Source: Sulfolobus sp. S-194 (lineage in GTDB: Archaea > Thermoproteota > Thermoprotei_A > Sulfolobales > Sulfolobaceae). Taken from it: a stretch of 64,000 nucleotides of DNA. Below are positions 55,712-64,000 of this stretch, piece after piece; the first letter of the stretch is position 1; the number at the start of each line of letters is the position of its first letter. Where the stretch lies: the NCBI RefSeq assembly GCF_012222305.1, contig NZ_CP035730.1, forward strand, positions 2,073,501 through 2,137,500, written 5' to 3'. Made by a program: the position numbers and the translations under genes. Below the pieces are notes generated by a model that searched no databases, was not told where the DNA came from, and saw only the letters and a list, made by a program, of their open reading frames with translations.

Positions 55712-55725
55712 TAAAACTTGTTTGA
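55712..55725. promoter_or_regulatory. Palindromic regulatory box between HbpS and dioxygenase genes
   Basis: TAAAACTTGTTTGA, one mismatch from TCAAACTTGTTTGA. It lies 5-6 bases upstream of the TATA elements on both strands, so it could activate both genes. Confidence 0.7.
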
Positions 55726-55769: not shown

Positions 55770-56777
55770 ATGGTGAACAAGATATTATCACAACTAGTTA
55801 GTGTAGAGATTTTAACCCCTAAGATGGATGATACTTTATGGTTTTTCAAAGAGATTCTAGGACTTTATGAGGTAGGTAAGAAAGGAAGGTCTGTATATTT
55901 AAGGGGATGGGAGGACTGGTATACTTATAGCTTAAAGGTAACAGAATCAGATACTGCAGGCGTGAAAGAAATTGTTTGGAGAACCTATAGTGAACAAGAT
56001 TTACATGATGCTGTTAATATAATTAATTCTTATGGTTTAGGCCTCGGCTGGGATGAAGGAGAACCCGACATGGGTGTAGGAAGAGGATATAAATTCCTAT
56101 TACCAAGTGGTCAAATAGGCAAAGTAGTATGGGAAATGAAAACATGGAGAGCTTCTGGAATGTTAAGATCTGGTTATAAGGCTAGGCCAATGAAGAAACC
56201 AACTAAGGGTGTACAAGCTAAAGATCTTTCTCATATATTTCTCTTTGCATATAATGATGATTCATTAGCTAAATCAGTAGAACTATTAAAGAAGTTAACT
56301 TTCAAAGTGAATGAGATATTAAAAGAAGGAGATCATAAGATAGCATATTGGATGGCCGTTAATGGTACTGCACATGATTTAGCTATTGGTTTAGATCCTT
56401 CAGGCGTTCCAGGTAGACTAAACCATGTAACCTTTAATGTTGATTACGCTGATGACCTTTTAAGGGCAGCAGACTTTTACACAGATTATGGCATAGAAAT
56501 TGTGGGTGGACCATTAAGACACGGTATAACTGATAGTCATTCACTCTACGTCAAGGAACCTGGTGGAAATGTGATCGAATTATTACATGGAGGTTATATA
56601 AATACTGTACCAGATTGGGAACCAGTGACATGGGATACGAAAGAGGATGAAAATAGGTGGTTATTCTATTGGGGACATGTCAAAGAAGCTTTCTGGCATG
56701 GCAGCCCATTACCACCAAATAAAATCAGTGATGAATTAAAGGAAATAATTAGACAAAAATTGGGTGCAAAAATTTAA
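55770..56777 (+). CDS. Extradiol (catechol 2,3-) dioxygenase, VOC family
   Basis: A 335-residue two-domain VOC protein. The Fe(II) ligands are visible as H155 (KDLSHIFLF), H219 (GRLNHVTFNV) and E270 (GGNVIELLHGG). It cleaves catechols next to the hydroxyls, opening the ring to a 2-hydroxymuconic-semialdehyde-type product. It is divergent from the HbpS gene, sharing the palindromic box, and is followed by the ADC-family copies. Its substrate (catechol or a substituted catechol) cannot be read from sequence. Confidence 0.9.
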   Translation: MVNKILSQLVSVEILTPKMDDTLWFFKEILGLYEVGKKGRSVYLRGWEDWYTYSLKVTESDTAGVKEIVWRTYSEQDLHDAVNIINSYGLGLGWDEGEPDMGVGRGYKFLLPSGQIGKVVWEMKTWRASGMLRSGYKARPMKKPTKGVQAKDLSHIFLFAYNDDSLAKSVELLKKLTFKVNEILKEGDHKIAYWMAVNGTAHDLAIGLDPSGVPGRLNHVTFNVDYADDLLRAADFYTDYGIEIVGGPLRHGITDSHSLYVKEPGGNVIELLHGGYINTVPDWEPVTWDTKEDENRWLFYWGHVKEAFWHGSPLPPNKISDELKEIIRQKLGAKI

Positions 56778-56920: not shown

Positions 56921-57727
56921 ATGAATATAACTATATGCTCTAAAATTCAAATAACAAATTCACATTACCTCCAACTAAGAGTGGGAAATCTCAAATAGTA
57001 TTTCCTCCACCGTGGCATTACGGAGTAACCTAGATTGTAGTTCATGAGAAATTTATTAAAGAATCCGCTAATAACGTGCTTCCTAATTTCCTTACAACTG
57101 ATGGTGAAGGCTGGGTTTACATAGCGGAGCTCATATCAATGTCAGATAGCAGTTGGGATTACATGCATCAAGATCCAGATTTAGTCCAATACATGGAAGG
57201 AGCTATAGGATTAAAGGTGAATTTTGAAGGGAAAAACTATCCTTACTTCCCCTTTATGTAGGTAGTTAAGGATTGGACATTAGTAAGGAGATGACTAGAC
57301 GGTTACCCTAAAAAGATAGCAAAAATAGCCATAACGAAATTACATCCCTTACTTCCGAAATACAATAAGCCAGAAGCTGGATTAAAAATTAGGAGGATAT
57401 GTAGTAAGGGGAGTAGGAATAATGTTTAGATTATAAGTCAAGCTTGAAGATAAGACAAATTCAAATTCAGTAAGAGAAATCCTGGGACTGTTTTTAAACA
57501 TCAGAAGATTTGCAAGTAGAGGATTTATATGAGGTAGTAAGTAAAGTTAGAGATGAGAGTGTATTAGGAGAAATATGGAAATGTAAAGTTAATCTAGGAT
57601 TAAGAGGATATGAAATAACGAAGTTAATGTGCAGAAGATTGAAAAAGTACTTGGTTATTATTACACTATGTATTTTAAAGTAACTAAAACCCAGTTATTG
57701 AGTAAAAGAGTGGCTAATCTAATATAG
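56921..57727 (+). pseudogene. Dead copy of an ADC-family gene
   Basis: Successive frames match the intact gene at 57811 in order: FTLPPTKSGKSQIV near 56960, then [20 protein letters not shown] (57076-57135), [18 protein letters not shown] and a YYY-rich end near 57650. Several stops (for example after PYFPFM at 57261) and at least two frameshifts break it. Its own promoter box survives. It is a tandem duplicate that has decayed. Confidence 0.85.
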
Positions 57728-60146: not shown

Positions 60147-60160
60147 TAAAACATGTTTTA
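60147..60160 (+). promoter_or_regulatory. Palindromic regulatory box before the aldehyde dehydrogenase gene
   Basis: TAAAACATGTTTTA, a perfect 14-base palindrome. It contains AACATGTT, the core of the Sulfolobus ARA box. It lies about 6 bases before AGTATATAGATA (TATA). Confidence 0.65.
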
Positions 60161-60205: not shown

Positions 60206-61678
60206 ATGATTTTGCCAGAAGTTCAATCAAACTATGGGAAACTAAGATTATATATTAATGGTGAGTACGTAGATTCAAAAACTGAAGTATGGGGGAATGT
60301 TTATAATCCAGCTAAGGACGAGGTTATTGCAAAAGTTCCTTTTTCTACTAAGGATGAAGTGAAAGAAGCAATTCAAGTAGCTCAAGAAGTATTTGAAAAG
60401 TGGAGAGAAGTTCCAATAACTACTAGAATACAATATCTGTTTGCATTAAAGAATAAACTTGAAGAGTATTCAGAGACTTTAGCCAGGATTACTACTCAGA
60501 ATCATGGTAAAACCGTACAGGAAGCGAGAGGAGATATGAGAAGAACAATAGAAAATGTTGAAGCAGCAATTAGTGTGGCCTACACCCTATATAAGGGAGA
60601 ACATTTAGACCAAGTTTCTCAAGAAATAGATGAGACTGTAGTCAGAGAACCTTTAGGAGTTTTTGGAATTATAACCCCATTTAACTTTCCTACAATGGTT
60701 CCATTCTGGTATATTCCTTATGCTATAGTCCTTGGTAACACTGTGGTAGTCAAACCATCAGAAATTACACCAATTCCAATGGATTTTATAACTAAGATAT
60801 TTGATGAAATAAAATTACCAAAAGGTGTTGTAAATGTAGTTCATGGTGCCAAAGATGTTGTCGATGAGTTTCTAACTAACAAGTTAGTTCAGGGCGTCAC
60901 TTTCGTAGGATCAACCAGAGTTGGAAAATATATTTACGAGAACGCTGGTAAAAATGGTAAGAGAGCGATTGTACAAGCTGGGGCTAAAAACTTCATTGTA
61001 GTCATGCCAGATGCAGACTTAAATAAGGCTATTCCATCGATTGTTTCATCGTTCTTTGGTAATGCTGGGCAGAGATGTTTAGCTGCGGCTAATCTAATTA
61101 CTGTGGGTAATATTTATGACGAGGTAAAAAGGAAATTTGTTGAAGCTTCAAAGCAGCTTAAAATTGGTTATGGTTTAGATGAGAGTGTTGATATGGGACC
61201 GGTTGTTACTAGAGATGCGAAAAAAAGGATAATCGGCTATATAGAAAAGGGTATTGAAGAAGGAGCAAAATTAATACTAGATGGTAGAGATGTAAAAGTA
61301 CCAGATTATCCTAATGGTTACTTCCTCGGCCCTACAATATTTGACGAGGTTACTCCAGAAATGATAATTGCTAAGGAGGAAATATTCGGTCCCGTAGCGA
61401 CAATAATTCAAGCTAAGAGTTTAGATGAGGCTATTGATATGATAAATAGAAGTAATTACGGTAATGCCTCATCAATATTTACAACTATTGGATACTATGC
61501 CAGAAAGTTTAGGAGGGAAGTTAATGCTGGAAATATTGGTATAAATATCGGTATAGCGGCTCCAATGGCTTTCTTCCCCTTTGGAGGAAGGAAAGACTCT
61601 TTCTTTGGAGTACTTCATGGTCAAATAGATAGTGTGGATTTCTTCACAGATAGAAAAGTGATAATAACTAGGTGGTAA
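60206..61678 (+). CDS. Aldehyde dehydrogenase, MmsA (methylmalonate-semialdehyde dehydrogenase) type
   Basis: A 490-residue ALDH. The catalytic Cys is C291 in FGNAGQRCLAA. GSTRVG at 235-240 and QAGAKNF at 257-263 are the MmsA-like variants; the usual Glu base (ELGGK) is replaced, a mark of CoA-dependent members. It would oxidise the semialdehyde formed from ring cleavage, perhaps giving a CoA ester. A near-perfect ARA-like palindrome precedes it. The HTH_10 gene follows convergently with 3 bases between. Confidence 0.9.
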   Translation: MILPEVQSNYGKLRLYINGEYVDSKTEVWGNVYNPAKDEVIAKVPFSTKDEVKEAIQVAQEVFEKWREVPITTRIQYLFALKNKLEEYSETLARITTQNHGKTVQEARGDMRRTIENVEAAISVAYTLYKGEHLDQVSQEIDETVVREPLGVFGIITPFNFPTMVPFWYIPYAIVLGNTVVVKPSEITPIPMDFITKIFDEIKLPKGVVNVVHGAKDVVDEFLTNKLVQGVTFVGSTRVGKYIYENAGKNGKRAIVQAGAKNFIVVMPDADLNKAIPSIVSSFFGNAGQRCLAAANLITVGNIYDEVKRKFVEASKQLKIGYGLDESVDMGPVVTRDAKKRIIGYIEKGIEEGAKLILDGRDVKVPDYPNGYFLGPTIFDEVTPEMIIAKEEIFGPVATIIQAKSLDEAIDMINRSNYGNASSIFTTIGYYARKFRREVNAGNIGINIGIAAPMAFFPFGGRKDSFFGVLHGQIDSVDFFTDRKVIITRW

Positions 61679-61681
61679 AAA

Positions 61682-62350
61682 TTAATCTTTTTCTTCCTTT
61701 ATTTTATTAATTATGTTTAAAAATTCTAACTCTTTAATATATTTTTTAATCATCTTATATTCAGCAGACCTTAAATGATATGTGAATGTTGACTTACTAA
61801 TATTAACTAATTTAGATACTTTATCTGACTTTATCCTTCTAGGAAAGTCAAAATATCCAGATTTATACGCTGTGACAAGAACTTTTAATTCTTGCTGTGA
61901 CAAATCCTCCGGCTCTATTTCAAACTCGTTTCTTTTTGCAACATAAAGCTTGCCTTTAGACCGCAAATCTTCTAGTAGTTCGTTAAGATAGGACTCATAA
62001 ATTAGTATTCTCCAAAATTCTTTTCCGTAATATTTGAAACCATCTATTATTATTCCATTATGCTTAGATATTGTATCCATCACACTCCCCTTATACCTCT
62101 TCCTGAAATCAAATAGTATTTTTCCATTTTCTGAAAGAGAGAAAGAAACATAATCTATGAAAGTACTAGTTTTTCTAATCTTGCTAATAAGATCTTTATG
62201 AGCTTTATCTAATATTATGATGGACCTTATATAATTTTTTTCCGTATCTACAGAAAAATTCAAAGTTTTAACAACGTAATCTCCTACAAGGCTCGTCCAA
62301 CAATTTTCATGCTCAATTCCAAGAAGTATCTCTTGTAATTTGTCTTTCAT
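61682..62350 (-). CDS. HTH_10 (bacterio-opsin-activator type) transcription regulator
   Basis: About 222 residues with the HTH_10 DNA-binding domain at the end: QQELKVLVTAYKSGYFDFPR followed by VSKLVNISKSTFTYHLRSAE near 175-205. The N-terminal 150 residues may be a sensing domain. The ATG at 62350 is preferred to a TTG at 62353. It is divergent from the monooxygenase gene, so it is the best local candidate for the regulator of the palindromic boxes; that is only by position. Two overlapping inverted repeats at 62401-62442 lie upstream. Confidence 0.82.
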   Translation of the reverse strand: MKDKLQEILLGIEHENCWTSLVGDYVVKTLNFSVDTEKNYIRSIIILDKAHKDLISKIRKTSTFIDYVSFSLSENGKILFDFRKRYKGSVMDTISKHNGIIIDGFKYYGKEFWRILIYESYLNELLEDLRSKGKLYVAKRNEFEIEPEDLSQQELKVLVTAYKSGYFDFPRRIKSDKVSKLVNISKSTFTYHLRSAEYKMIKKYIKELEFLNIINKIKEEKD

Positions 62351-62584
62351 CAAGTTTCACATGTTAATAATGAGTAATGATAATATTTAAACCTTATTAA
62401 ATAACACATAAACTATAATGTTATTAAGTATATATTAACATTGGACTATACTATATAGATATAAAGAAAATAATGATACTTATTATATCTTATGTTAAAA
62501 TTATCATAAAACTAATTGTGCTTTTCTTTTTAGTATATGAAGTTTTAAGTATATTTCCATTGTAGAGGTTAATAGGAGTTATGT

Positions 62585-62598
62585 TCAAACTTGTTTGA
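62585..62598 (+). promoter_or_regulatory. Palindromic regulatory box before the monooxygenase gene
   Basis: TCAAACTTGTTTGA, the consensus form: arms TCAAAC and GTTTGA with a TT centre. It is 8-10 bases upstream of TTTTATTTATA (TATA) and 37 bases before the ATG at 62636. Confidence 0.75.
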
Positions 62599-62635
62599 TA
62601 CAAACTTTTATTTATAGTAAGAGAGAAACTATCTA

Positions 62636-63442
62636 ATGAAGCCTGTTCCTACAGAAGCTAGGTTACCTAGTAGAGATGAATATTATAATCTAGCTAATAG
62701 ATTAGAGTGGACTCCTAAATACGTAAGCGAAGAAGAACTATTTCCAGTAGACATGACTGGAGTACCAAATCTACCTATTGACGTTTGGGCAGAATTATAT
62801 GATGCACCATATAAGGTAACTTATAGAGAATACGTAAAGAACCAAAGAGATAAAGATCAAAGAGTTTTCGCTATTAGAGAAGCTGGCGTAAGAACCGAAT
62901 TAGTCAAAAAATTAGATAAGACCTATCATCAGGGATCCTTCTGCTTCCATATAACAGCAGTTCCGATACCAGAATATACAGCAGCTATAGCAGAGGCTAG
63001 AATGGCTAGATTTGGCAAAGCCGGTGAATGGAGGAATTTAGCTACTTTTGGCTCCATGGACGAAGTAAGACATGCACAAGTGCAAATACTATTATCACAT
63101 GATAGTATATCAGTCAGTCCAAAGTTTGCATTTGCACATAAAATGTTTTGGGTTGATGGATGGTTACCAATAGCAGCTAGATCCTTCTTCGATGATACTA
63201 TTACTGCAACTTCAGCGATAGAGTTTGCATTGATGACTACATTCGCTTTTGAAACGGGCTTCACTAATCTACAATTTGTAGCTTATGCTGCAATGGCAAA
63301 CAAAGCTAATGATTTTGTATTTTCTTCGACAACGCAAAGCATACAGACTGATGAGTCAAGACATGCTCAAATAGGTCACCCAGTCTTAAAGAGCTTTGTA
63401 GATGTAACTAAAGTAGCTGAAGAAGTAAAGAAAAAGATATGA
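62636..63442 (+). CDS. Diiron monooxygenase alpha subunit, N-terminal half (TmoA-like, split gene)
   Basis: 268 residues homologous to the first half of bacterial multicomponent monooxygenase alpha subunits (toluene/phenol hydroxylase type). The diiron ligands all fit: E120 (AEARMARF), E143 and H146 (SMDEVRHAQ), E206 (FETGFTN), E240 and H243 (TDESRHAQ). The usual alpha subunit runs on for another 230 residues; here the frame ends with a clean stop after the diiron helices, and the next gene continues the alignment. It would hydroxylate aromatic rings or alkenes with O2. It has its own promoter with the palindromic box. Confidence 0.88.
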   Translation: MKPVPTEARLPSRDEYYNLANRLEWTPKYVSEEELFPVDMTGVPNLPIDVWAELYDAPYKVTYREYVKNQRDKDQRVFAIREAGVRTELVKKLDKTYHQGSFCFHITAVPIPEYTAAIAEARMARFGKAGEWRNLATFGSMDEVRHAQVQILLSHDSISVSPKFAFAHKMFWVDGWLPIAARSFFDDTITATSAIEFALMTTFAFETGFTNLQFVAYAAMANKANDFVFSSTTQSIQTDESRHAQIGHPVLKSFVDVTKVAEEVKKKI

Positions 63443-63555
63443 TTTTTATTTTTCTTCTTTTTTACGGAATTATATATTGTTTAGAATATTTTATTCTTTA
63501 AATAATTAAAATCATTTATGTCTGTATTCAAAATCTTTAAGTAAGATAAAACTCA

Positions 63556-63569
63556 TCAAACTTGTTTGA
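63556..63569 (+). promoter_or_regulatory. Palindromic regulatory box before the second monooxygenase gene
   Basis: TCAAACTTGTTTGA, identical to the box at 62585. It is about 5 bases upstream of TTTTTAAATA (TATA) and 38 bases before the ATG at 63607. Confidence 0.75.
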
Positions 63570-63606
63570 ACCATTTTTAAATAAGCAAGAAAGCACATTA
63601 TTATTG

Positions 63607-64000
63607 ATGACTGAAACAGAGGGGATAGGTAGTTTAGGTCAAACAAAAGGGGAAGTGAAAGAAGCATTGTCAAATGTTGCTGATATGTTAATGAAACAAT
63701 ATAAAAATACAGTAGAATTCGCCGTAAAAATGAGAGAAAAAGGACCTGCATATAGAGAGGCTGGCGAATATTTAATAGCAAAGGGATTTTGGCTTTCTGT
63801 AAGATTAATAGGAGCTTTAACTGGTGTATCCATGGATTATCTTACACCACTAGATGCCAGAGTAATGTCGTATAAGGAATTTATGACAGAATGGGTTGGA
63901 GCACAGTTCAGAAGACTACTAGAAGATTATGGAATAAATCTACCGTGGTACTGGAAATGGTTTGAGTTAGAATTAGACTACTGGCATCACGACTTTATTA
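63607..64000 (+). CDS. Diiron monooxygenase alpha subunit, C-terminal half (TmoA-like, split gene; 3' end outside window)
   Basis: The frame continues to the window edge. After a new, helical N-terminal segment of about 70 residues it matches alpha subunits: MDYLTPLDARVMSYKEFMTE near 78, then FRRLLEDYGINLPWYWKWF and LDYWHHD, aligning with the part that follows the diiron helices. So this is the second half of a split alpha subunit, joined in the complex with the product of the previous gene. The start is the ATG at 63607, set by the TATA box 26 bases upstream. Confidence 0.85.
   Translation, partial: MTETEGIGSLGQTKGEVKEALSNVADMLMKQYKNTVEFAVKMREKGPAYREAGEYLIAKGFWLSVRLIGALTGVSMDYLTPLDARVMSYKEFMTEWVGAQFRRLLEDYGINLPWYWKWFELELDYWHHDFI

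Follow-up and report, generated by a model that had tools for sequence, protein, structure and literature searches.

In the bacterial diiron enzymes toluene/o-xylene monooxygenase (ToMO; TouABCDEF, PDB 1t0q) and toluene-4-monooxygenase (T4MO; TmoABCDEF, PDB 3dhg), the alpha (hydroxylase) subunit is one chain of ~500 residues. Multicomponent-monooxygenase relatives have been reported in S. solfataricus, S. islandicus and Pyrobaculum arsenaticum (PMC3512248), and in Saccharolobus solfataricus P2 the cluster Sso1225-Sso1233 carries a TmoA annotated in two pieces, Sso1227 as an 'amino end' fragment and Sso1228 as a 'carboxy end' fragment (PMC7820114). On phenol, the transcripts of Sso1227 and Sso1228 rose 73-fold and 384-fold, respectively, with a p value for Sso1227 of 0.015, which exceeds the 0.01 threshold set in that study (PMC7820114). 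For S. islandicus, 'TmoA alpha beta' is named among six subunits, a list mention that does not discuss the split and in which TmoA is counted as two parts, as here (PMC3283564). A survey described 'duplicated' tmoA in Sulfolobus and Acidianus (PMC9535955), which could be explained if each half was scored as a hit of its own. In related species, then, a two-piece alpha is already on record through annotation and expression studies, which answers the doubt in the original prediction as to whether other Sulfolobales have it, and the locus described here is a further case. Our literature search, with most subscription papers outside its reach, turned up no study of the structure or biochemistry of a two-chain alpha.

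The stretch of DNA analysed (64,000 nucleotides, hereafter the window) corresponds to positions 2073501-2137500 of a single-contig 2.79-Mb genome that its relatives place in the Sulfolobaceae. Its cluster resembles that of P2, which belongs to a different species and, by genus grouping, probably to a different genus: TmoB, C, D and E and a metal-sulfur-cluster protein follow in the same order, and catechol 2,3-dioxygenase, aldehyde dehydrogenase and acetoacetate-decarboxylase-like genes lie close by, the match having been made by gene order and annotation.

Two genes that together cover one alpha chain

The 268-aa product of gene A1 (62636..63442, + strand) is the N-terminal half of alpha, as assigned from Pfam (Phenol_Hydrox, 3e-66), the match to TouA and alignments. 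A2 (63607..64000, + strand) encodes the C-terminal half, with a YHS domain (Pfam, 1e-13), and continues past the end of the window; the whole gene (L003 9608-10549) specifies 313 aa, a length taken from the genome. The two genes are separate, as predicted, with a gap of 164 bases (63443..63606, + strand) that holds a T-rich, apparently terminator-like tract after the A1 stop. A TTG at 63562 was considered as the start of A2, but it falls within the promoter box and was therefore dismissed.

In the comparison with the solved structures, A1 spans TouA, the alpha subunit of ToMO, from residue 5 to residue 251, and residues 51-257 of A2 span TouA 252-462, such that the halves abut without loss and together rebuild the alpha chain with no gap. 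This agrees with the earlier view that A1 ends about half-way and A2 resumes the alignment, and so does the position of the break, which directly follows the last diiron ligand. A1 runs on for about nine residues past the break point, and A2 begins with an N-terminal extension of 49-50 residues (about 50 had been predicted) that is without bacterial counterpart in the alignment.

As is characteristic of the toluene (T4MO/ToMO) group, A1 carries six Glu/His iron ligands in two EXXH sets (E113, E143, H146, E206, E240 and H243), all of them in common with ToMO and T4MO and aligned with the TouA ligands. Five of the six had been named correctly beforehand; the first had been given as E120 and is really E113, which sits in 'IPEYTAA', aligns with TouA E104 and is invariant across all aligned sequences, whereas E120 is not. 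A model of A1 alone, made with AlphaFold2 without an alignment, reached a pLDDT of 32 and was discarded.

All eight bacterial alphas examined were single chains of 495-519 aa (seven toluene-type alphas of 495-508 aa and one phenol hydroxylase of 519 aa), in keeping with the prediction that the bacterial subunit is one chain. The one-chain alpha of ~500 residues, a trait of the toluene group, was not found at this locus, and two genes stand in its place in six genomes. The original prediction saw in this a possible adaptation to heat or acid, which addresses why the chain is split and not what it is. Such an adaptation would fit the fact that all carriers found are Sulfolobaceae, archaea of hot and acid places; however, the thermophile Thermomicrobium roseum keeps a single alpha chain of 497 aa, and a split that happened once and was then inherited would leave habitat and descent confounded, such that this explanation appears unlikely to us.

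Since every iron ligand is in A1 and the halves have separate promoter-like regions, it could also be thought that A1 is a diiron protein working without A2 and that A2 has another role. However, A2 matches the rest of the alpha subunit, with 38-45% identity to the toluene-monooxygenase alphas compared, it keeps the YHS domain and, among 31 Sulfolobaceae genomes, it is present only in those with an intact A1, all of which makes independent roles highly improbable.

Conservation and origin of the split

Intact A2 was found in 6 of the 31 Sulfolobaceae genomes, and in all six A1 was a separate gene of equal length. Besides the genome of the window, G131, G146, G141, G152 and G050 have the break at the same position. 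The gap between the halves is about 130-150 bases in the first four (the figure for G152 is somewhat overlong, being counted from the end of the BLAST hit), and in G050 A1 and A2 are divergently transcribed with ~390 bases between them, which excludes a frameshift or a sequencing error and bears out the prediction on this point. A full-length alpha was found neither in the genome of the window, where PF02332 matched only A1 and the beta subunit, nor in any of the 31 Sulfolobaceae genomes; the alignments with TouA and with these genomes, which had been proposed as a check, gave complementary halves and a conserved split.

Both halves are under strong purifying selection. In unsaturated pairs of close relatives, dN/dS was 0.04-0.09 for either half, and for the extension of A2 (47 codons) it was 0.02-0.08; at larger distance the extension evolves faster, with a pN against G050 of 0.30-0.34 versus ~0.15 for the whole of A2. 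The complete cluster is absent from 25 of the 31 genomes and decayed in some, which shows it to be dispensable.

Remnants of A1 without A2 were seen at L018 8822-9262 (G136), L019 15762-16383 (G059, Ca. Aramenus) and L038 (G266, Pyrobaculum-like). The G136 remnant holds only A1 residues 129-268 and ends at the same split stop codon, which indicates that, within the genus of the window, the split form was once present outside this species too. In G059 only an N-terminal part of A1 is left, and the search of the Pyrobaculum-like family, a name we derive from its place and the literature, gave only a truncated A1 remnant. That a single gene was recently broken by frameshift, insertion or sequencing error, leaving two decaying ORFs, has next to no likelihood: the remnants in G136 and G059 do show that decay occurs in relatives, but the same break, own start and extension recur in six genomes, on opposite strands in one of them, selection is strong, and the G136 remnant stops where the intact A1 stops.

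Small trees of the two halves united the archaeal sequences in one group separate from the bacteria, with support of 1.00 for A1 and 0.99 for A2, consistent with one acquisition and one split. The genome of the window (G000), which is of another genus, branches between G050 and the remaining g5 genomes, at a node with few sequences whose support is moderate for A1 and lacking within the archaeal group for A2; its position hints at a transfer between genera.

Promoter-like regions and the surrounding genes

The prediction that the gap holds a promoter with a palindromic box is borne out to the extent that box and TATA-like element are there, as found by sequence and pattern search. The box TCAAACTTGTTTGA, to which no strand is assigned, occurs before A1 (62585..62598) and before A2 (63556..63569), followed by putative promoter elements on the + strand, TTTATTTATA for A1 (62607..62616, about 20-28 bases before the ATG) and TTTTTAAATAAG for A2 (63574..63585, about 22-33 bases before the ATG). 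The distance of about 20-33 bases between the TATA-like stretches and the ATG suggests leaderless transcripts of both halves. Two further boxes, likewise without strand, were located in the window: one with one mismatch (55712..55725) before a gene of the glyoxalase/extradiol-dioxygenase family (55770-56777), catechol 2,3-dioxygenase-like by gene order, and a related one, TAAAACATGTTTTA (60147..60160), before the aldehyde dehydrogenase gene (60206-61678).

Across the 2.79-Mb genome, the search for TCAAACNNGTTNGA gave just three sites: one before A1, one before A2 and one at ~944 kb (G000:C1:944608), before an acetoacetate-decarboxylase-family gene. A looser form, TNAAACNTGTTTNA, was found four times in the window where 0.1 would be expected, and all four hits lie in promoter regions, those of the dioxygenase, the aldehyde dehydrogenase, A1 and A2; as this form was chosen after the sites had been seen, this count is descriptive, and the genome-wide count of TCAAACNNGTTNGA is the cleaner test. 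At these four sites and at G000:C1:944608, TNAAACNTGTTTNA marks the promoters of an apparent aromatic-catabolism regulon. Boxes and TATA-like elements precede both halves in five genomes; the related boxes in G131, G146, G141 and G152 share the core AACNTGTT, and in G050 they are not clearly present.

A regulator of the HTH_10 (bacterio-opsin-activator) type (61682..62353, - strand; PF04967, 7e-19) adjoins A1, and its gene stays near the cluster in relatives. Its identity is 61-63% in G131, G146, G141 and G152 and only ~30% in G050; being conserved where the box is clear and diverged where it is not, it fits as a candidate reader of the box.

Downstream of A2 follow a 143-aa gene in the position of TmoB, a Rieske ferredoxin (PF00355, 4e-13), an MmoB/DmpM effector (PF02406, 2e-20), a beta subunit of 377 aa (PF02332, 4e-59) and a PaaD/MIP18-like gene. 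The homologues of alpha, beta, Rieske and effector proteins thus stand in the same order as in ToMO and T4MO. The 143-aa gene in the TmoB (gamma) place has no Pfam or PDB match, and in profile comparison its product resembles bacterial TmoB weakly (probability 7.8%, E 0.004). In the bacterial clusters a 2Fe-2S reductase follows beta, whereas the archaeal clusters have the PaaD/MIP18-like gene there; no TmoF-type 2Fe-2S/FAD oxidoreductase was found after beta in this cluster. The ferredoxin reductase of the archaeal clusters is of a different type and lies elsewhere: here it is a Pyr_redox_2 plus Reductase_C protein ~2 kb further downstream, and in G131, G146, G141 and G152 a reductase-like gene is directly upstream of A1. 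In G152 (L042 3308-4585), the beta gene is interrupted near residue 315-320 by ~1.3 kb of other DNA resembling a transposon insertion; an insertion element in this operon has been described in S. solfataricus 98/2 (PMC3512248).

Upstream in the window lie the dioxygenase-family gene, an acetoacetate-decarboxylase-family gene, a fragment of another and the aldehyde dehydrogenase gene. The fragment (57076-57261; Pfam ADC, 61 aa) is apparently decayed, and the copy at ~944 kb (L021) is full-length and has a perfect box before it.

A proposed two-piece hydroxylase

We consider it very probable that A1 and A2 together make up the alpha subunit of a T4MO/ToMO-type toluene/phenol monooxygenase, each gene supplying one half. 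The presence of the split in six genomes, the divergent arrangement in one, purifying selection and the published induction of the two counterparts on phenol in S. solfataricus give good support to a split alpha that is functional and has separate promoters. A single-chain gene of bacterial type would have been broken just after the diiron-binding stretch, probably once, in the ancestor of the archaeal lineage, and the second half has its own start, its own promoter and the ~50-residue N-terminal extension. A1 brings all six iron ligands and A2 the remaining alpha fold with the YHS domain; by homology, the two would dock to close the active site, presumably in a one-to-one ratio at each alpha position. 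Assembled with beta, the small third subunit, the Rieske ferredoxin and the effector, the resulting hydroxylase would make catechol from phenol or toluene-type substrates, if this species uses them, and the ring would then be opened by the dioxygenase encoded nearby. It is a more speculative thought, and rather unlikely as it stands, that the split gave rise to a new interface, in which the A1 tail and the A2 extension, ~58 residues together, act as an archaeal docking element placed between the last iron-binding helix and the remaining alpha, and that the separate promoters set the levels of A1 and A2 independently and so control assembly.

For annotators, the case is a warning that such halves may be mistaken for 'fragments', in the sense of broken genes, or for copies that arose by duplication. 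Protein engineers are offered a cut point found in nature, together with a two-chain system in which the assembly of these enzymes can be studied. In this case the alpha subunit of a diiron monooxygenase has been cut directly after its metal site, and both pieces have been kept under selection in at least two genera.
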